Origin: a virus
Strand: one strand, 5' to 3'
IMG/VR virus record: IMGVR_UViG_3300042934_000426
Location: 1-64,000 of that record
Length of the DNA stretch: 64,000 bases
Part shown: positions 5,544 through 30,529 of the stretch, piece by piece
How positions within the stretch are numbered: position 1 is the stretch's first letter
Layout of the letters: every line of letters starts with the position of its first letter
Program-made: the position numbers and the translations under genes
The notes under the pieces: model-generated
What the model was told of the DNA's origin: nothing
The model's input: only the letters and a program-made list of their open reading frames with translations
Databases searched by the model: none

Positions 5544-7376
5544 CTAGTAAAAGAAGTCACTACCTCCGCTGTTCTCCACCTTCCGAAGGGCAATCGTTAG
5601 GTAGTTCATGGCATGCCCAAAGTGGTCGCCACCTGGTAGCGTGCCTACACGTTCTTTGATTAGCTCTTTCTTCGTTTTTTCGTCGGTTTCAATATCTCGT
5701 ACTAGTACCAGGTTGGTCAGGTGCTTAATAAACGTTTCGAAAAGGGGGCTACTAGCGACCCAGGCTGGGATAACGATTTTCCCATCACGAAACATCTTCG
5801 CCATGATTTTGAGTGTAATCGTACGGTCGACGTTAACCTTGTGGTCGTCTTCGTTCCATTGGTCGTCCATGTTACGGTTAATGTCGGTGGATAAACTTGG
5901 ATAGAAGCAAGAGAACACCTTCGAAGGAAAGTCTTGCATAAGCTCCCAATTTCGGTCTTTCCCGTACCCAGCGTCGAATACCCCCCGCTTCGCTTGCCAT
6001 TGCACCAGCTTTTCGCCTGACTTACGGATATGTGGGTTGTCTTTTCTTCCGTCGCTATTCGTGTGGGCTTCGTCTTCTTTGATATCCCATATGTCCATGA
6101 TAATAACCTTTTCAGGGCTGTCAGGGTGACGCATGCCCGCAATCCCCCAGGATTGATTCCCCCAGTCCGTTCCAATGGCAAGGTTCTCCCTTCGAAGGTC
6201 ATACGGGCTCTTTAAGCTAGTGTCCACACAGCGCATAATGTCGCCCCGACTTATCATGACGTTATCCCCTAGGTACGGTCGTCCGATAACGTAGTTCTCA
6301 AAGAGCTGGTCAAGTTTATAGTCTTCTTTCTTTTTCATGAGTTGGGAAGCACTTATCCATGGACAAATAAGCTGACTGATTTGGTAACCTCTTACAGCCG
6401 TTTTGTAGGGGTATAAGGCTCTCCATATCCCTTTGATACGGGTTTCATCACTGATGTAGTTTTCGCACTTCGTACAGATATAGGCGTGGGTGTCGGTCTG
6501 TCTGATACCTGGAACCGATAGATGTAGATTATGGTTCGGAATCCCCCGACTATCGACACTAAGGGTGCGTACGCACTTCGGGAAGTCATGAATGAGCGTG
6601 AACCAATGCCCACAATGCGGGCACTTCATGAACCAATGCTGTTGGTCGCTCTTTTGGAAGCTTTCGTTTACCCCTACGCCAGGAAGTGAAGGCGTGGAGA
6701 TATCTCGTCGCCAGCCGTAAGCGGAAGAGGAAATCGTTTCATTGAAGGCTATCATGACCTTCGGGTGCATACGGTCGATTTCATCAAAGGTTACCTTATC
6801 CACGTCAATCCCTTCCCCCGCCTTCGGGGTGTGACCACTTCGGAAGAATATCCAGCTATCGCCTATCTTACGTAGTCGCACGTTGTCGACGACTTCTTCG
6901 CCTGGTTTCTTTTTGCCTGTCACAGGGTCTAGTCCCATTCGGTCACGCACATAAGGGCTTTCTTTCATAACCTCTTCGATACGGGTTTTACTGAAGTCTG
7001 CTACCTGGTCAAAGGTCGGGAAGACATACGCTTGCTTTGTATACGGGAAGACATCCCCGAACCATAAGGTCTCACGGACTTCGTTTTCCGAAGCCCCACA
7101 TTGTCGGCTCTTTTGGTTTGCCTTGTGTGGGTGCTGGTCGTCTAGTGGCTGTTGCAAGAACTGACGCTGACCACGTAGCCCAATGTTAATCTCCTGGGCG
7201 GTAATCTCATGAGGCTGACGAAGGTCTAATGACCCGTCGCTCATAAGCTGTTCGAAGCGGTAGGGCTTCCCACGAAGCTTCGTGTAATACTGTGCCCATA
7301 TACTCGGACGCTTTTTGATGGAATATTCTAATACCTCTTCGGGTGATAATTCGTGTGTTCGGTGGTGTGACGTCAT
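5544..7376 (-). CDS. terL: terminase large subunit
   Basis: 610 residues, packaging motor ATPase and nuclease of the lambda GpA-like family. Visible elements are a deviant Walker A-like KSRQCGASE near residue 90, Walker B VTFDEIDRM near 196, a zinc-binding insert with CPHC and CTKC, and the nuclease domain with IGTDWG, GVFDAGYG and GGDHFGHAMNYL. It overlaps the small gene upstream by 4 nt. Downstream genes are tail-fibre-like rather than portal and capsid, which is an unusual order. Confidence 0.9.
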   Translation of the reverse strand: MTSHHRTHELSPEEVLEYSIKKRPSIWAQYYTKLRGKPYRFEQLMSDGSLDLRQPHEITAQEINIGLRGQRQFLQQPLDDQHPHKANQKSRQCGASENEVRETLWFGDVFPYTKQAYVFPTFDQVADFSKTRIEEVMKESPYVRDRMGLDPVTGKKKPGEEVVDNVRLRKIGDSWIFFRSGHTPKAGEGIDVDKVTFDEIDRMHPKVMIAFNETISSSAYGWRRDISTPSLPGVGVNESFQKSDQQHWFMKCPHCGHWFTLIHDFPKCVRTLSVDSRGIPNHNLHLSVPGIRQTDTHAYICTKCENYISDETRIKGIWRALYPYKTAVRGYQISQLICPWISASQLMKKKEDYKLDQLFENYVIGRPYLGDNVMISRGDIMRCVDTSLKSPYDLRRENLAIGTDWGNQSWGIAGMRHPDSPEKVIIMDIWDIKEDEAHTNSDGRKDNPHIRKSGEKLVQWQAKRGVFDAGYGKDRNWELMQDFPSKVFSCFYPSLSTDINRNMDDQWNEDDHKVNVDRTITLKIMAKMFRDGKIVIPAWVASSPLFETFIKHLTNLVLVRDIETDEKTKKELIKERVGTLPGGDHFGHAMNYLTIALRKVENSGGSDFFY

Positions 7377-16468: not shown

Positions 16469-16497
16469 AACATACATACGCCAATTACTTTTCTCTA
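16469..16497 (-). promoter_or_regulatory. early promoter box 1
   Basis: -35 TAGAGA, 17-bp spacer ending CGTATG, -10 TATGTT, then AAGTATGAGG and a 5' hairpin. Drives 16042-16410. Confidence 0.7.
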
Positions 16498-22397: not shown

Positions 22398-22527
22398 GTG
22401 TAACACTCCCTTCGGTATATATTGTAAATCTTAGCACCACGGTTTGTAAATACTTTTCTCTACGGTGTCACACACGGGCATACGCCCGCATAGAATGTAC
22501 GACAATGAAAGGAAAGGGTTGGTAACA

Positions 22528-22913: not shown

Positions 22914-23105
22914 ATGATGGCACGTTCAAACCAATTAATCGTACCTGGTGTAGAAAACGCATTAAACAACATGAAAGCTGAAATTGCTTCCGAATTCGGG
23001 GTACAATTAGGCGCTGACGCTACAGCTCGTCAAAACGGCTCAGTCGGTGGCGAAATGACAAAGCGTTTAGTGGCATTGGCTCAATCTCAATTAGTAGGCA
23101 AATAA
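22914..23105 (+). CDS. alpha/beta-type small acid-soluble spore protein
   Basis: 63 residues with the full family signature: [21 protein letters not shown], then [25 protein letters not shown]. In spores these proteins coat DNA, shift it towards A-form and protect it from UV and heat. EIASEF is the cleavage site of the germination protease GPR, so the protein can be degraded on germination. Start ATG 22914 with AAAGGAG 8 nt upstream. B. subtilis sspC lies in prophage SPbeta, so phage-borne SASPs have precedent. Confidence 0.93.
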
Positions 23106-23669: not shown

Positions 23670-23765
23670 TTTACGAAAAATAATTTTTATCGGACACGCA
23701 CACATGGGAAGTGTGCCCATAAAATACAGGGACGATACACCTAAGATACGAAGGAGCTGAGGAAC

Positions 23766-24224
23766 ATGAATCAAATAAAAACAGTAGGCACATTTCGGGA
23801 GATAGCGACACTAGAAAGAATGTGCCCTGAATTAAACTGGTTTGAGTACGAACAATTAATCGAAGGTCGAAGCTTTACCCGCTGGTATGTCAAAAATCGG
23901 AAAGTCATCAATAAGCTTGCTTTAGCCACTCCCGCTTTTGCTATGACGGTGTTCAAAGTATCTCCGATGTTTTTACTAGGAACGCTATTGCCACCGATTG
24001 CCATTCCTGTAGCGGGGTCGTTCTTCGCTGGGCACGGGGTCATTCTTCTTCATATGCTGATTATCGGTTTTTTAACGCTAGTGGTGACGACGTTCTTGAA
24101 GTTCACAGGTCGCGGGGACTTAGCGCCATTAGTTATGTTTGTGGGTGGGGGTGTCATACTCTATGAAACGTTGGGTCTCTTTAAAGCGATATATACGTCC
24201 GTCGCTACTTTTTTCAATATGTGA
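23766..24224 (+). CDS. membrane protein of the conjugation-like block
   Basis: 152 residues. A soluble N-terminal ~50 residues (LERMCPELNWFEYEQLIEGRSFTRWYV) is followed by three hydrophobic segments around residues 58-75, 80-115 and 122-135. AAGGAGCTGAGG precedes the ATG. Together with the two small membrane proteins downstream it could form the membrane part used by the coupling ATPase; inference from order. Confidence 0.65.
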   Translation: MNQIKTVGTFREIATLERMCPELNWFEYEQLIEGRSFTRWYVKNRKVINKLALATPAFAMTVFKVSPMFLLGTLLPPIAIPVAGSFFAGHGVILLHMLIIGFLTLVVTTFLKFTGRGDLAPLVMFVGGGVILYETLGLFKAIYTSVATFFNM

Positions 24225-24322: not shown

Positions 24323-24526
24323 ATGCACTTAGAAGCATTAATCATTAAATATACGTTGGGCACGATGTTTCTTGTCGTTACCCTGGTCTTCGGGGTTAAA
24401 ATCATTCTCTTACTATCGACGGTGGCAAAGTTGAAGTTAACGAGCTTTATCGGAAGCCTGGCGGGTACGCCCTGGGACGTTATTGCCCGAACCTTCGAAA
24501 CGGTATTTAAAGGAGCGGTGAAGTAA
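24323..24526 (+). CDS. small membrane protein
   Basis: 67 residues, one long hydrophobic helix (TLGTMFLVVTLVFGVKIILLL) then an amphipathic tail. Its last base is the first base of the ATPase start codon (TAATG), so the two are coupled. Confidence 0.65.
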   Translation: MHLEALIIKYTLGTMFLVVTLVFGVKIILLLSTVAKLKLTSFIGSLAGTPWDVIARTFETVFKGAVK

Positions 24527-27051
24527 TGTTATTTAAGACCCTCTTTTATCCGTTGAATCGCAAAAAGCTAGATAGAGCTTCCGAAGAAGGGAAGCTCTAT
24601 CAAATTTTCATTGAAAAAGACGCGAAATTCAAGCCCAGCCAGTACAACAACTTTTTTGACAGTATTTACACCACGTATGACCCGAAAAACCCGCACCGCT
24701 GGCTTACCTTCGAATTCCACGGAACGACGAAGGGAATCGCCCTGTATAGCTGGTTATCGGGCGGAATTCCGCAAGGATTCCTTCAATCGAATATCAACAG
24801 CGTCCACCCGTCGGCTGAAACGATTGCCGTCGAAGACCTAGACAAAAAGGATTACGCCAGCTTCGGAAGGTTATATGGTATGGACGTGAGCTGTGCCACG
24901 CTAGAGCTGGACGGTCACTATCTCTTTAATACGTTACAATCGGACGGGGAACGAGTAGGAGCTGACTTAATGGCTTCGCTTTGTGCGTCGCTCGATAACC
25001 TGGACGATAACGAAGAAGTTGGCGTCCAATTTTTATTGCGTCCTGTCCACTTCCGAAGTCTAAACGTTGCCACCGCTCACTTTGAACTATACAAACGCTT
25101 CGGAAGACGACCAGGTAAGCTTCACTATCCATATGCGAAATATAACCCATACTTAGAAGTTCCGAAGGCAATTCTAGGCTCGCTCCAACATGCCATGGTA
25201 GGAAGTGCGGGTAGCCAGGACGTTCATACCACGATGACATCCATACAAAAGAAGCTCGAAGCGGGGGTGTACTTCGATTTGCTGATTCGGATTGTGAGCG
25301 CCCACCCAACACCAGGTCGTGCGAAGCTTCGGCTGGACACGGTGATAAGCTCATTCGCTCCCGCTACCGATAAAAATAGACTTCGACCGTACTCGAATTA
25401 CCAGGATAAGACGAAGAAGCTCGGCAAGTTCACCTACTATAAGGAAACAGGTCGAACGAAGTTTTTGAAGGACTTCGAAGCCCGTCGGATTCACACGTAC
25501 CCGATTGAGAACTACGTCACCCCTCCCGAACTCGCTACCATGCTCCATTTCCCTTCGGCTGACATTCCTGGGGTCATACGGCTTCGAGCGAAGAAAATGG
25601 CGGTGCCTGACGGAATCCATCAATATAACTCGATTGAAGAAGCCTGGAAAGATAAGGCGATTGTTTTCGGGGTCAGTAATTTCAGAGGAAGGCAAAAGTA
25701 CCTCGCGTTCAAGGACATCAAAATGCTTATGCAACATTTGTACTGCATTGGGGGAACAGGGAGCGGAAAAAGCTACTGGTTGAGTTTCATAGCGTTACAG
25801 GTAAGTAGGCACGCGGGGCTGACGTTCTTCGACGTCAAAGGCGACGTGGTGGACGATTTACTTCGCCACCTTCCGAAGAGCGAATGGGATAGGGTCTTCT
25901 ACATCGACTTAAAGAGCGAAGGCTGGTATCTCCCGTTCAATATCCTTCGTCAACCTGGTATGAGCGTCTATAACCTGGCAACGCTGATTGTGTCTACCTT
26001 CATTAAATGCTTCTCGGACGGCTCGATTAAAGAGCATAGTCAGAACGTCCTTCGTCAAGCGCTGATTGCGGTTATCTCAACTGACCCCGAAGGAAGCTTA
26101 CTAGAAGTCTATCGCATGTTCACAGACGAACACTACTTGGATTTGACGATTTCACGGCTCGAAGCACGGAACGAATACCCTGACGTCCTCAACTATTGGA
26201 AGAACATCTTTAAGAATATGAAGGCTTCGGGACGTAAAGGCGAAGCGGGAGCGATTACCAATAAGCTCGCTATGATTACCCAAAACGAGCGCCCCCGCTA
26301 CACCCTAAGTCAGCGAAAGAACGCACTCGACTTCCGTAAGCTCATGGATGAAAAGAAAATCATCCTGGTCAACTTCTCTATGGGTCAGAACGTAGACGAA
26401 ATTCTCATATTCTTCGGAACCCTGTTTACGAACTTTATCAGCCGTGCGACGTTCAGCCGTGACGATACGCACCGTGACAGCCGTGTTCCTCATTTCTTTA
26501 TCGTCGATGAATTCGAAATGTTTATTCACCAGGATTCGGATATGCGAAAATTTCTCGAAATGGCTCGAAGCTACGGGCTGGGGCTGGGGCTAGCCCATCA
26601 GAACATGGCACAAATAACGAATCCCGCTTTGCTCGGCACGATTAAGGATAACACCTTCAGCCAGGTCAGCTTGCTCGTCGGTGACCAATCCGCTCCATCC
26701 GTCGCCAAAATGTTTCCAGGCGTCGAAGCGGAAGACCTCACCAGCATGATAGAGTACACAGGCTTCGCACGATTCAAGAAGCTCTCCCCGAAGCCATTCA
26801 CCTTCGATAGCCTGGATATGACAGAATACTTCGGAAGTGTGAGCTGGGAAGAGGTCGAGAAGTGGAAAGATTCGTTCAAGCGTCAGCACTACAAGCATAT
26901 GCTAGAGATAAAAGAGGATATAGACGAACGCTACCGCACCGTCGAAGCGAATCAGGTTCAAGAAGGGGATTCCCCTTCGGTCAAGAAAGGGAACGCGACG
27001 GGTAAACTAAAAAGGGGGAAATCACATGGAACGATTCATTCACACACGTAA
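24526..27051 (+). CDS. VirD4/TraG-type conjugative coupling ATPase
   Basis: 841 residues. Walker A CIGGTGSGKS is near residue 408 and Walker B FFIVDEFEMF near 656, followed by a TraM-recognition-like segment (GLAHQNMAQI...LVGDQSAPSVAKMF). The N-terminal 400 residues lack membrane helices but follow three membrane proteins. This is the architecture of VirB4/VirD4-like DNA-translocation ATPases of Gram-positive conjugative plasmids and ICEs. No relaxase or secretion channel is visible, so transfer would need partners elsewhere. Confidence 0.85.
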   Translation: MLFKTLFYPLNRKKLDRASEEGKLYQIFIEKDAKFKPSQYNNFFDSIYTTYDPKNPHRWLTFEFHGTTKGIALYSWLSGGIPQGFLQSNINSVHPSAETIAVEDLDKKDYASFGRLYGMDVSCATLELDGHYLFNTLQSDGERVGADLMASLCASLDNLDDNEEVGVQFLLRPVHFRSLNVATAHFELYKRFGRRPGKLHYPYAKYNPYLEVPKAILGSLQHAMVGSAGSQDVHTTMTSIQKKLEAGVYFDLLIRIVSAHPTPGRAKLRLDTVISSFAPATDKNRLRPYSNYQDKTKKLGKFTYYKETGRTKFLKDFEARRIHTYPIENYVTPPELATMLHFPSADIPGVIRLRAKKMAVPDGIHQYNSIEEAWKDKAIVFGVSNFRGRQKYLAFKDIKMLMQHLYCIGGTGSGKSYWLSFIALQVSRHAGLTFFDVKGDVVDDLLRHLPKSEWDRVFYIDLKSEGWYLPFNILRQPGMSVYNLATLIVSTFIKCFSDGSIKEHSQNVLRQALIAVISTDPEGSLLEVYRMFTDEHYLDLTISRLEARNEYPDVLNYWKNIFKNMKASGRKGEAGAITNKLAMITQNERPRYTLSQRKNALDFRKLMDEKKIILVNFSMGQNVDEILIFFGTLFTNFISRATFSRDDTHRDSRVPHFFIVDEFEMFIHQDSDMRKFLEMARSYGLGLGLAHQNMAQITNPALLGTIKDNTFSQVSLLVGDQSAPSVAKMFPGVEAEDLTSMIEYTGFARFKKLSPKPFTFDSLDMTEYFGSVSWEEVEKWKDSFKRQHYKHMLEIKEDIDERYRTVEANQVQEGDSPSVKKGNATGKLKRGKSHGTIHSHT

Positions 27052-27931
27052 GATTTCGAAGTTTCGAAGGAAAGAGCTAGGCAACCCTGAAGAGCATTTG
27101 CACGACCTACTTCAGAAGCCGTTTTTGACAAAGCGAGACAAAGAGGTATTGCTGGCGGTTTATTACCATCGTTGCCTAACCACGGAACAAATAGCGGAAA
27201 TCTTTTTCAAGTACAATACGAAGGGAGAAAAGAATAATCAGTCGAATTTAATTGCCCGAAGACGACTTCGGAAGATGTTTGACGCATACCTTTTGGATAG
27301 GTTCTTCGTGGACGTGGGAGAAGGGAACGGTTCCTCTCCCGCTCATGTTATTTTAGATACGATAGGGGCGAAGGTCGTCGCGGGTCTGCTTAACTTGCCT
27401 ATGAGCGATATCAACTGGCGGTATGAAATGAACGAAGCCCGCCTTCCCTACCTAGAGCATATGGTGAAAATCAATCAGTTCTATGTATACCTACTTCGGA
27501 AGGCTCGAAATACGAAGGGCGAAGTCCTGGGCTTCCGAACCGAAAACCACGTCCGCTACGAATTTAAACATTGGAACGAACGAATTATTTTCAACCCTGA
27601 CGCCTACGGGCAATACTGGCAAGGGGACGAAGGCTTTCATTTCTTCCTAGAGCTGGATAATGGCACGATGTCCCCGAAGACCTTCGAAAAGAAGCACCAG
27701 CGCTATAGTGCTTTTTACGATTCAGGCGAATATCGGAAGCATTATGAGAACTTTCCAATTATCCTAACGGTGACGACGACCGAAGAGCGAGCGAAACAAT
27801 TACGGGATATTATTTACAAGCGGGATAATACGGATATGATATGGCTTTTTGCTTCGTGGGATAAAGTGAAGGTGAATCCGACTTCGACTATATGGCTCGG
27901 AAAAGAGAAAGACCCCGTTAGATTACTCTAA
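27026..27931 (+). CDS. replication-relaxation family protein
   Basis: 301 residues with the family layout: a winged-helix N-terminus (FLTKRDKEVLLAVYYHRCLTTEQIAEI), then a nuclease-like alpha/beta domain (NPDAYGQYW...FFLELDNGT, KTFEKKHQRYSAFY). The ...PDA...ELD...K arrangement resembles a PD-(D/E)XK core. Family members act in plasmid relaxation and mobilisation. It overlaps the coupling ATPase by 26 bp and has AAAAAGGGGG as ribosome site. Confidence 0.75.
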   Translation: MERFIHTRKISKFRRKELGNPEEHLHDLLQKPFLTKRDKEVLLAVYYHRCLTTEQIAEIFFKYNTKGEKNNQSNLIARRRLRKMFDAYLLDRFFVDVGEGNGSSPAHVILDTIGAKVVAGLLNLPMSDINWRYEMNEARLPYLEHMVKINQFYVYLLRKARNTKGEVLGFRTENHVRYEFKHWNERIIFNPDAYGQYWQGDEGFHFFLELDNGTMSPKTFEKKHQRYSAFYDSGEYRKHYENFPIILTVTTTEERAKQLRDIIYKRDNTDMIWLFASWDKVKVNPTSTIWLGKEKDPVRLL

Positions 27932-28299: not shown

Positions 28300-28541
28300 T
28301 TGCGTTTCACCCGCTTCTCTTTACAGATTACGCTAATAGCGGTTACAACGAAGAAGATAGTGACAATGATAATAGCTAAGGCAAGACATCCCCATAAAGG
28401 AGCGGTTACCCACCACCATGACCAATTAATGAATCCCGTAAGTTTCAAGCCGATAAATAGAATGGCTAGTAGTCCTAGAAATCCGATACCTCCACCTGTG
28501 CTGTTATTGCTTTGTCTTTTGTTAGAATAGTAGTTTGTCAT
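28296..28541 (-). CDS. small membrane protein
   Basis: 81 residues, two hydrophobic segments around 19-36 and 45-72, basic tail. Start codon overlaps the stop upstream and its ribosome site lies in the codons for ERTGE of the preceding gene. Confidence 0.65.
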   Translation of the reverse strand: MTNYYSNKRQSNNSTGGGIGFLGLLAILFIGLKLTGFINWSWWWVTAPLWGCLALAIIIVTIFFVVTAISVICKEKRVKRK

Positions 28542-28720
28542 TATTCTCCCGTCCTTTCGATAACAGGTATGCCTACACCACTAAGATAAAGCTCTCTATC
28601 GCCCTTCCAATCGAAGCGGTGGATAGATTGTATTCTTAGTGTTCTGCCGTCTTCTAGTTGTATTTTGTGCCCTATTTCTACAGTAGACCATCTTATTTTC
28701 GCTTTGAATAGTTCTTCCAT
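28541..28720 (-). CDS. small beta-rich protein
   Basis: 59 residues (begins MEELFKAKIRWSTVEIG), possibly a small barrel. It begins on the stop of the sigma gene and ends IERTGE like that gene; the DNA around both junctions is the same for about 20 bp, supplying the ribosome site each time. Confidence 0.6.
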   Translation of the reverse strand: MEELFKAKIRWSTVEIGHKIQLEDGRTLRIQSIHRFDWKGDRELYLSGVGIPVIERTGE

Positions 28721-29319
28721 TATTCTCCCGTCCTTTCGATTTTGATAGCTAAACGATACAAGTCTTCTTCGGTCACATCATAGAGCAAAGCTTCAATTAA
28801 TTGCTTCACCGAAGCCCCTGTAGCGTCCATTAGGTTTAATTCGAGCTTCTTTGGTGTTATACGCTTCGGAGGAACGACCACTTCTGCATTAGGTACACAT
28901 TCGGTATCTGATACCCTTAGCCATGTTTTTCTAAAGGCTTTTGCGTCTTCTTCGTCTACGTTTATTTTTAAGGTTTTTATTAGGGGTGTAGTCGGTAACT
29001 TTTCATGAAGCTCTTCGACGCTTATTCCTTTATCATGGGCTTCGATAGTCGCTTCAATGACCTCTTTCGCTATATCTTTCGTGACAATCGGTGTACGGAC
29101 AATTTGGGCTACGTCCTTCGTTACGGCTTTGTCGACCATTTCCTGAAGGTCTATTTTCCCCTTTTTTAACCGCTTGATTTGGCTCGTATACGTACGTACG
29201 GTACCAATGCTTGTCTGCAAGTGGTCAGCCAGTTCTCTTGGTTCCATCGTAGGGTAATGTTCCAGGGCATATCGTACTTTGTCTAACATCGTTTTTCCTT
29301 CTAATTGGATGGGTTTCAT
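28720..29319 (-). other. possible internal translation product of the sigma gene
   Basis: GAAGGAGCTGG at 29327-29337 and ATG 29319 match the phage's standard ribosome site exactly and in frame. The product would be a 199-residue HTH protein without sigma regions 2 and 4. Confidence 0.45.
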
Positions 29320-30117
29320 AGGGCTACCAGCTCCTTCGTTTTTCTCTATTTCACTTATATGGTAAACGGTGACGGGTGCTTCGTCGATGGATTCTTCTGC
29401 CTGTTCTTCCTGTGGTTTCTTTACAGCCTTAGGAAGCTTAAATATTCCTTCTCCATCAAATTCATGGGCTTCGATTAAACCCTTGGAAAGAGCCAGCTTC
29501 CGAACCTTTTTTCCGACCCGCTTCTCTAAACGGCTTATGTAGCTTTGGCTCAACCCTAATTGGTTGGATAGCTCTAGCTGGGTCAGTTTTCCTTCGTCTT
29601 CGGCTAGCATAAAGTTTTCGAAGATTCGAAATTCTCTATCGGTAAACTTTTCGCGGACAATACCAATTAGCTGACGTATCGTATCTCGTTTCTCTTGTCG
29701 TTCGATATCGTAGCTTGACTTGTCTGTCACCACATCAAGTAAGGTGAGGTCGTTACCATCGAAGTCTACGCTAATCTTGTCCTCTAATAGTGTCACATTT
29801 CGGTGTTTATTCTCCTTCCGAAGTACCATGAGAATTTCGTTGTTCATACAAGTACTAGCGTAGGTAGCAAACTTCCATCCTTTTGTCGGGTCGAACGTAT
29901 TAAAACCTTTCAATAATCCTATACTAGCTATCGAAACTAAATCGTCTTCAGGTAAGCCCGTATTACTGTAGTTTTTCACGATATGACGGGCTAACCCTAA
30001 GTTTTTTCTGAAAATGTTATTCTTAATGTCTTCTTTTCGCTCTAGGTTGGTTTCACTGTAGTAGTCTGCGAATAAGTCTTCGTTCTTCGTCTTTTTCAAG
30101 GTCTGAATACTTATCAC
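28720..30117 (-). CDS. sporulation-type sigma factor with C-terminal HTH extension
   Basis: 465 residues. Region 2 (residues ~35-105: KNLGLARHIVKNY, GLPEDDLVSIASIGLLKGFNTF, FATYASTCMNNEILMVLRKE) closely recalls SigE/SigK. Region 4 HTH lies at about 178-210. From 220 onward is an extension with a second HTH (MEPRELADHLQTSIGTVRTYTSQI, ~291-314). It would redirect RNA polymerase to phage or sporulation promoters. GTG start with GGGGG upstream. A canonical ribosome site before Met267 (ATG 29319) could give a separate C-terminal protein. Confidence 0.85.
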   Translation of the reverse strand: MISIQTLKKTKNEDLFADYYSETNLERKEDIKNNIFRKNLGLARHIVKNYSNTGLPEDDLVSIASIGLLKGFNTFDPTKGWKFATYASTCMNNEILMVLRKENKHRNVTLLEDKISVDFDGNDLTLLDVVTDKSSYDIERQEKRDTIRQLIGIVREKFTDREFRIFENFMLAEDEGKLTQLELSNQLGLSQSYISRLEKRVGKKVRKLALSKGLIEAHEFDGEGIFKLPKAVKKPQEEQAEESIDEAPVTVYHISEIEKNEGAGSPMKPIQLEGKTMLDKVRYALEHYPTMEPRELADHLQTSIGTVRTYTSQIKRLKKGKIDLQEMVDKAVTKDVAQIVRTPIVTKDIAKEVIEATIEAHDKGISVEELHEKLPTTPLIKTLKINVDEEDAKAFRKTWLRVSDTECVPNAEVVVPPKRITPKKLELNLMDATGASVKQLIEALLYDVTEEDLYRLAIKIERTGE

Positions 30118-30154: not shown

Positions 30155-30529
30155 TTAATGTAAGTTCGTTGGCTGATTTTTAATAGGTCGTGTCATAAAC
30201 CATACATGACCGTTTTCGTCGATGTACACGTCTTCTAGGTCAGGATTGAAGTCTTCGCTTTGGATGTCCAGGTCTTCCTGAAGCATTTGATAGATTTCAT
30301 CAACGTGTAGGTTATAGTCTTCTTCCCATTGGCGTATGAGCTCGTCAATCTGCCTCATTCTGCCATTGAGAACGTTTAAGTGTGTTCGAAGGGCTCTTGC
30401 GTATTCTTTATCGATATTACCCGCATAGCGTCCTCCGTGCTCGGCTTGTTGGTCGTTTGCCTTCGTGTCCTGGGTTTCCGTGTCCAGTGGTTTTTTCGAA
30501 AACATATCGACGACTTTACCTTTTTTCAT
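30155..30529 (-). CDS. hypothetical acidic protein
   Basis: 124 residues; disordered basic N-terminus, then helices (LRTHLNVLNGRMRQIDELIRQW) and an acidic end. Overlaps the zinc-ribbon gene upstream by 14 nt and precedes the sigma gene. Could be a partner or anti-sigma protein; only position suggests it. Confidence 0.6.
   Translation of the reverse strand: MKKGKVVDMFSKKPLDTETQDTKANDQQAEHGGRYAGNIDKEYARALRTHLNVLNGRMRQIDELIRQWEEDYNLHVDEIYQMLQEDLDIQSEDFNPDLEDVYIDENGHVWFMTRPIKNQPTNLH

Follow-up and report, generated by a model that had tools for sequence, protein, structure and literature searches.

The sigma factor gene and its surroundings

The window, i.e. the whole stretch of 64,000 nucleotides (64 kb) that was analysed, is part of a virus record of 104,950 bases and carries at 28720–30117 on the minus strand the gene of an extended sigma factor of 465 amino acids. 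The reading frame is open over all 465 codons from the GTG start at 30117, which is preceded by the ribosome-binding site AGGGGGA at a distance of a few bases, and the product is recognized by Pfam and NCBIfam profiles. The gene belongs to a compact leftward run. Its upstream neighbour (30155–30529, minus strand) encodes 124 residues with no assigned function and gives tblastn matches in the related phages L056, L057, L058 and L062; the orthologue of this gene is the syntenic anchor adjoining the sigma gene in relatives. Downstream, the ATG of a gene for 59 amino acids (28541–28720, minus strand; assigned from the sequence) overlaps the sigma stop codon (GAATAATG), which suggests translational coupling, and the last sigma codons form the ribosome-binding site of the downstream gene. 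Both successive genes, ending at 28541 and 28720, close with ERTGE-stop (CGAAAGGACGGGAGAATAATG), since these codons double as ribosome-binding site and overlapping start of the next gene.

Two rightward genes converge on the sigma gene. The first encodes a TraG/VirD4-like coupling protein (24526–27051, plus strand; PF02534, E = 3.8e-7) that is conserved in relatives, the second a protein of the replication-relaxation family (27026–27931, plus strand; PF13814, E = 2.2e-27). The pair (24526–27931) is conserved across the phage group, and a ParM-like gene is found in L058; TraG-like, relaxation and ParM-like genes make a phage-plasmid lifestyle possible. Further to the left, at 22914–23105 on the plus strand, lies a gene for an alpha/beta-type SASP (PF00269, E = 3e-21), which bears out the SASP mentioned in the initial annotation; no such gene was found in the relatives searched. 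The gene at 23766–24224 (plus strand), situated between the CATAAAAT site described below and the TraG-like gene, shows a sub-threshold match to SpoIIIAC/AD (22.3 bits at a cut-off of 24).

In the complete record, long tail genes accompany those for DNA polymerase I, helicases, a B12-type ribonucleotide reductase and an SPO1-like terminase (about 32% identity); comparison at the DNA level yielded no close relative among cultured phages. The host is probably a spore-forming bacterium. Syntenic relatives were found using the neighbouring genes as bait. At the same locus, after the orthologue of 30155–30529, the phage contigs L056 (99 kb) and L057 (107 kb) encode SigE/K-type sigma factors of 396 and 434 amino acids, respectively, each with an extension; L078 is a third phage with the identical layout of sigma and extension. 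In G006 (102 kb; terminase 73% identical) the flanking genes are kept, other small genes replace the sigma gene, and the region 2 profile PF04542 has no match across the whole record. The flanking sequence available for L058 and L060 likewise contains no sigma homologue. The records of the relatives are possibly incomplete, and those called linear may be fragments; the G006 locus is intact. Since syntenic relatives manage without it, the sigma gene is to be regarded as an accessory gene and not as the essential middle/late sigma of the phage.

Lineage of the sigma domain

Residues 1–207 constitute a sigma-70 factor composed of region 2 and region 4. Region 2 (residues 36–103; 29809–30012, minus strand), the part for core binding and −10 recognition, is delimited by Pfam Sigma70_r2 (PF04542; E = 1.1e-13, 51.1 bits at a gathering cut-off of 24) and by alignment with SigE and SigK. 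Region 4 (residues 160–207; 29497–29640, minus strand), the part for −35 recognition, is defined by alignment and by Sigma70_r4 (PF04545), which covers residues 175–207 with 27.3 bits, above its cut-off of 24.1. The aligned region 4.2 helix reads GLSQSYISRLEKR in the window protein, compared to GISQSYISRLEKR in SigE and GISQAQVSRLEKA in SigG.

The initial annotation had judged region 2 of the factor closer to SigE and SigK than to vegetative or phage middle sigmas, a judgement with which family scores, domain composition, the region 4.2 sequence and phylogeny agree. Among the NCBIfam models SigK and SigE score highest with about 145–152 bits, against 54–61 bits for SigF and SigG; SigK reaches 151.7 and SigE 149.2 bits, SigF 61 and SigG 59. 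However, all scores stay far below the equivalog cut-offs, with 145.3–149.2 against 348.6 bits for SigE (TIGR02835) and 150.9–151.7 against 298.65 bits for SigK (TIGR02846), so that the window sigma is kin of SigE/K and not SigE or SigK itself; the sigma part is 38–39% identical to SigE. Like Bacillus SigE and SigK, it shows the order of region 2 and region 4 with no sigma-3 domain in between, and shares residues in regions 2.3–2.4 and 4.2. In contrast, sigma-3 is present in the aligned SigF, SigG, SigB and SigF/G-like phage sigmas.

In the phylogenetic tree the window sigma falls within the SigE/K lineage (support 82/79). A placement with SigF, SigG or SigB was ruled out by the AU test (p-AU 0.0068), a placement also at odds with the missing sigma-3, and the p-AU of 0.02 also speaks against a position within SigE only. 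Once further phage rows are included, the window sigma clusters with the orthologues from the same locus (90/81), the deep order being undecided. Because branches are long and most supports lie between 80 and 90, the exact neighbours of the window sigma are uncertain. Assignment to the SigE/SigK lineage in the wider sense is supported by these alignments and trees.

The window sigma differs from Bacillus SigE and SigK in being phage-borne, in its 258-residue extension with a helix-turn-helix (HTH), in the lack of spoIIGA among the neighbours of its gene, and at its N-terminus, which aligns after the pro-sequence of both factors. Due to the missing pro-sequence the sigma, if made, should need no proteolytic activation.

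Previous work has described phage sigmas of sporulation type that affect dormancy, mostly SigF/G-like, i.e. of forespore type (PMC9429907). The statement of such a bias in the initial annotation agrees with that report, but SigE/K-lineage sigmas are also known from deposited phage genomes, namely those of the SPO1 group and of Goe8 and f2b1. The gp2.21-type sigmas of the SPO1 group (SP8, Goe16) share the SigE/K lineage with the window sigma, and the SP8 protein is annotated as SigE; however, they comprise at most 234 residues and have no extension. Their grouping with the window sigma in one tree may reflect long-branch attraction. For SPO1 gp2.21, recognition of SigK-like phage promoters has been hypothesised (as cited in PMC9429907). 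In SP8 and Goe16 (L012, L050) the gene immediately downstream of the sigma gene encodes a nuclease, which is called sporulation-specific NucB in the annotation of Goe16 and competence-specific nuclease in that of SP8. Large plasmids from Paenibacillus, Aneurinibacillus and Geobacillus (L007, L008, L044, L046) also carry sigma genes of the SigE/K lineage; in three of these four plasmids ClpX follows the sigma gene, and L007, L008 and L046 have PrgI/T4SS-like or pilus genes nearby. Many human-gut matches named 'Bacteriophage sp.' were discarded as phage precedents: the two examined carry sigE, in one case beside a spoIIGA-like gene, and their sequence was taken to be bacterial.

The C-terminal extension

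Region 4 is followed by an extension of 258 residues (208–465). It begins with a linker (residues 208–276; 29290–29496, minus strand), delimited by AlphaFold and alignment and mostly predicted with low confidence. The linker leads to a second HTH (residues 277–318; 29164–29289, minus strand), for which AlphaFold, run with a five-sequence alignment, predicts three helices with a pLDDT of 83–86, the rest being of low confidence; a full-length prediction without alignment (pLDDT 40) was of no use. The HTH is in register with those of L056, L057, L078 and Goe8, has no Pfam match, and gives only weak matches in Foldseek (best E 0.42), the best of which are HTH DNA-binding proteins including FapR and sigma factors. 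Thus the HTH which the initial annotation had attributed to the extension is recovered, at the same position as in the orthologous phage sigmas. The C-terminal module (residues 424–465; 28723–28848, minus strand) is defined by an alignment pattern resembling strand-helix-strand that is found in all extended relatives. One of its helices is predicted with moderate confidence, and profile tests of this module gave no significance.

Direct searches yielded no relatives of the extension in Pfam, phage records or viral contigs. Among the relatives the aligned extensions are 11–20% identical and thus diverge far faster than the sigma part. The HTH of the window protein shows a weak sequence link to its orthologues (5 of 1000 shuffles were equally good) and no detectable similarity to HTHs of the Herelleviridae (1703 of 2000 shuffles). 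In L078, however, the HTH is clearly related to the latter (21.2 bits, 0 of 2000 shuffles), and those of L056 and L057 show a weak relation.

Extended sigmas of Bacillus Herelleviridae, Goe8 (461 aa), f2b1 (546 aa), Eldridge_0172 (506 aa), Moonbeam (514 aa) and P59 (443 aa), display the same order as the window protein: a sigma domain, a distal HTH and a short C-terminal module. Their sigma domains belong to the SigE/K lineage in Goe8 and f2b1 and to the SigF/G lineage in Eldridge, Moonbeam and P59. Although the Herelleviridae are another phage lineage and the window extension has no significant similarity to theirs, L078 bridges the two by its HTH, and common descent of the extensions is plausible from the sequences compared. 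Comparative evidence from alignment and structure prediction shows the extension to be a real module. The length of 258 residues is near the 245 given in the initial annotation; the extension is less unusual than was stated there, since its layout recurs in related phages and in Bacillus Herelleviridae. That unrelated Bacillus phages share this layout hints at a recurrent class which has so far drawn little notice; distal HTHs are present in deposited phage sigmas, and literature searches found no description of them.

Candidate target promoters and proposed role

A pattern search revealed two candidate promoters of the SigE/K type on the plus strand, CACACACGGGCATACGCCCG-CATAGAAT (22469–22496; weak statistics) before gene 22519 and CACACATGGGAAGTGTGCC-CATAAAAT (23699–23725) before gene 23766 and the TraG-like and relaxation genes. 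The CATAnAAT −10 box of each (CATAGAAT at 22469+, CATAAAAT at 23699+) adjoins a GGG..CCC palindrome, which might belong to another regulator as its operator. L064, a relative that bears the sigma, has GGGCACACGCCCATACAAT at 7209+ before the orthologue of gene 23766; before the orthologue in sigma-less G006, nothing resembling the CATAnAAT site is found. The excess in upstream regions, four sites where 0.64 are expected, came after eight patterns had been tried, and the strict count was reached by one of 30 Markov controls. A loose SigK pattern occurs genome-wide 30 times both in the window phage and in a sigma-less relative, i.e. shows no enrichment. With a handful of sites and several patterns tried, the two CATAnAAT boxes of the SASP/TraG-like cluster are suggestive candidates for sigma targets.

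Taking the protein as a whole, we consider it somewhat probable that it acts as an accessory alternative sigma of the mother-cell (SigE/SigK) lineage, active as made without an inhibitory pro-sequence, and that its second HTH selects promoters, mainly of the phage. Region 2 would bind host core RNA polymerase, and the conserved residues of regions 2.4 and 4.2 would pick CATA-type −10 and SigE/K-type −35 elements. On its flexible linker, the second HTH may touch DNA near the core promoter and would probably direct the holoenzyme to certain promoters, namely those of the phage. Likely targets would be a small number of phage promoters between 22.4 and 27.9 kb, in the rightward accessory cluster that encodes SASP, TraG-like and relaxation-type proteins. 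Host SigE/SigK-type promoters may be a secondary target, and their mistimed use would disturb sporulation. An active form combined with a second DNA-binding module could redirect the host transcription machinery to virus or spore genes, and subversion of host sporulation by the phage sigma would be plausible. Interference with the mother-cell programme, or its use by the phage, as suggested in the initial annotation, has indirect support from the conserved recognition residues, the missing pro-sequence and a few SigE/K-type sites close to the SASP and TraG-like genes. A SigE/K-lineage sigma without pro-sequence and with a conserved extra HTH, together with a SASP, makes it possible to test in concrete terms whether the mother-cell programme is exploited by phages; the extended sigma likewise allows one to ask whether a promoter-selecting domain can be built into a sigma factor.

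A more specific scheme, in which a self-activating mother-cell-type sigma reads by its HTH the GGG..CCC palindrome beside CATAnAAT, turns on, in sporulating cells, a cluster of accessory phage genes (partition-like gene, SASP, TraG-like and relaxation genes) and lets the phage genome ride into or out of the spore, appears very improbable. Rather unlikely, but to be reckoned with, is that the sigma serves mainly against dormancy, mistimed firing of the host SigE/SigK regulon or titration of core polymerase blocking the spore and keeping the host lysable. Phage SigF/G-like sigmas, which are phage-borne, of sporulation type and accessory to lysis as well, are dispensable for lysis and can lower the yield of spores by as much as 99% (PMC9429907). 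One of them, Eldridge ELDg169 with 45% identity to SigG, is a precedent for the preferred reading as well: it activated more than 400 sporulation genes in B. subtilis and reduced spore yield by 99% (PMC9429907). From the identity match alone (44% to SigG over the sigma part) ELDg169 appears to be the extended Eldridge_0172 (506 aa); the cloned construct may have been with or without extension. Furthermore, the DNA-recognition residues of the window sigma match those of SigE, and the missing pro-sequence means that it would escape SpoIIGA/SpoIVFB control. Unlike the window sigma, these dormancy sigmas belong to the SigF/G lineage and contain sigma-3. Against the anti-dormancy reading, sporulation genes responded little to those phage sigmas that were more divergent (PMC9429907), to be seen beside the low identity of the window sigma to SigE, and a SASP on the phage fits use of spores as well as blocking. 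Unlikely is also a regulatory or protein-binding extension (autoinhibition, anti-sigma docking or RNAP appropriation) whose HTH no longer binds DNA: its fast divergence, with the layout alone kept, would suit such a role, but the HTH core keeps its register across the phages compared, and its prediction in the window protein is a confident one.

The preferred reading, an accessory sigma with few targets, would leave a larger promoter-like family to another factor. Thirteen near-identical copies of CGTAGAG-N17/18-TATGgT (CGTAGAG-aAAAAtaAAAGgCGTATG-TATGgTAAtaATGAGGG; CGTAGAG...CGTATGTATGgTAAtaATGAGGG) lie on the minus strand at 16480, 17363, 18095, 19367, 19725, 21409, 21872, 34401, 38480, 54519, 59889, 60525 and 60945, 54–79 nt before gene starts and far above shuffled controls. 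Their spacing suits −35/−10 boxes and their −35-like box varies between lineages, as might be expected if the window sigma were a regular middle/late sigma reading this family. Such a role is nevertheless highly doubtful: the TGTATnnTA −10-like core is common to relatives with the sigma and to G006 and L060, in which none was found and where it is combined with another −35-like box, so that the 13 promoters probably need no window sigma. Moreover, the core resembles the vegetative TATAAT class and not CATA. The SPO1 middle/late promoter motif is absent from the window phage. It seems likelier that the 13 copies would be read by the host vegetative polymerase together with another phage factor, and the element provides a good case of promoter turnover within a phage lineage.
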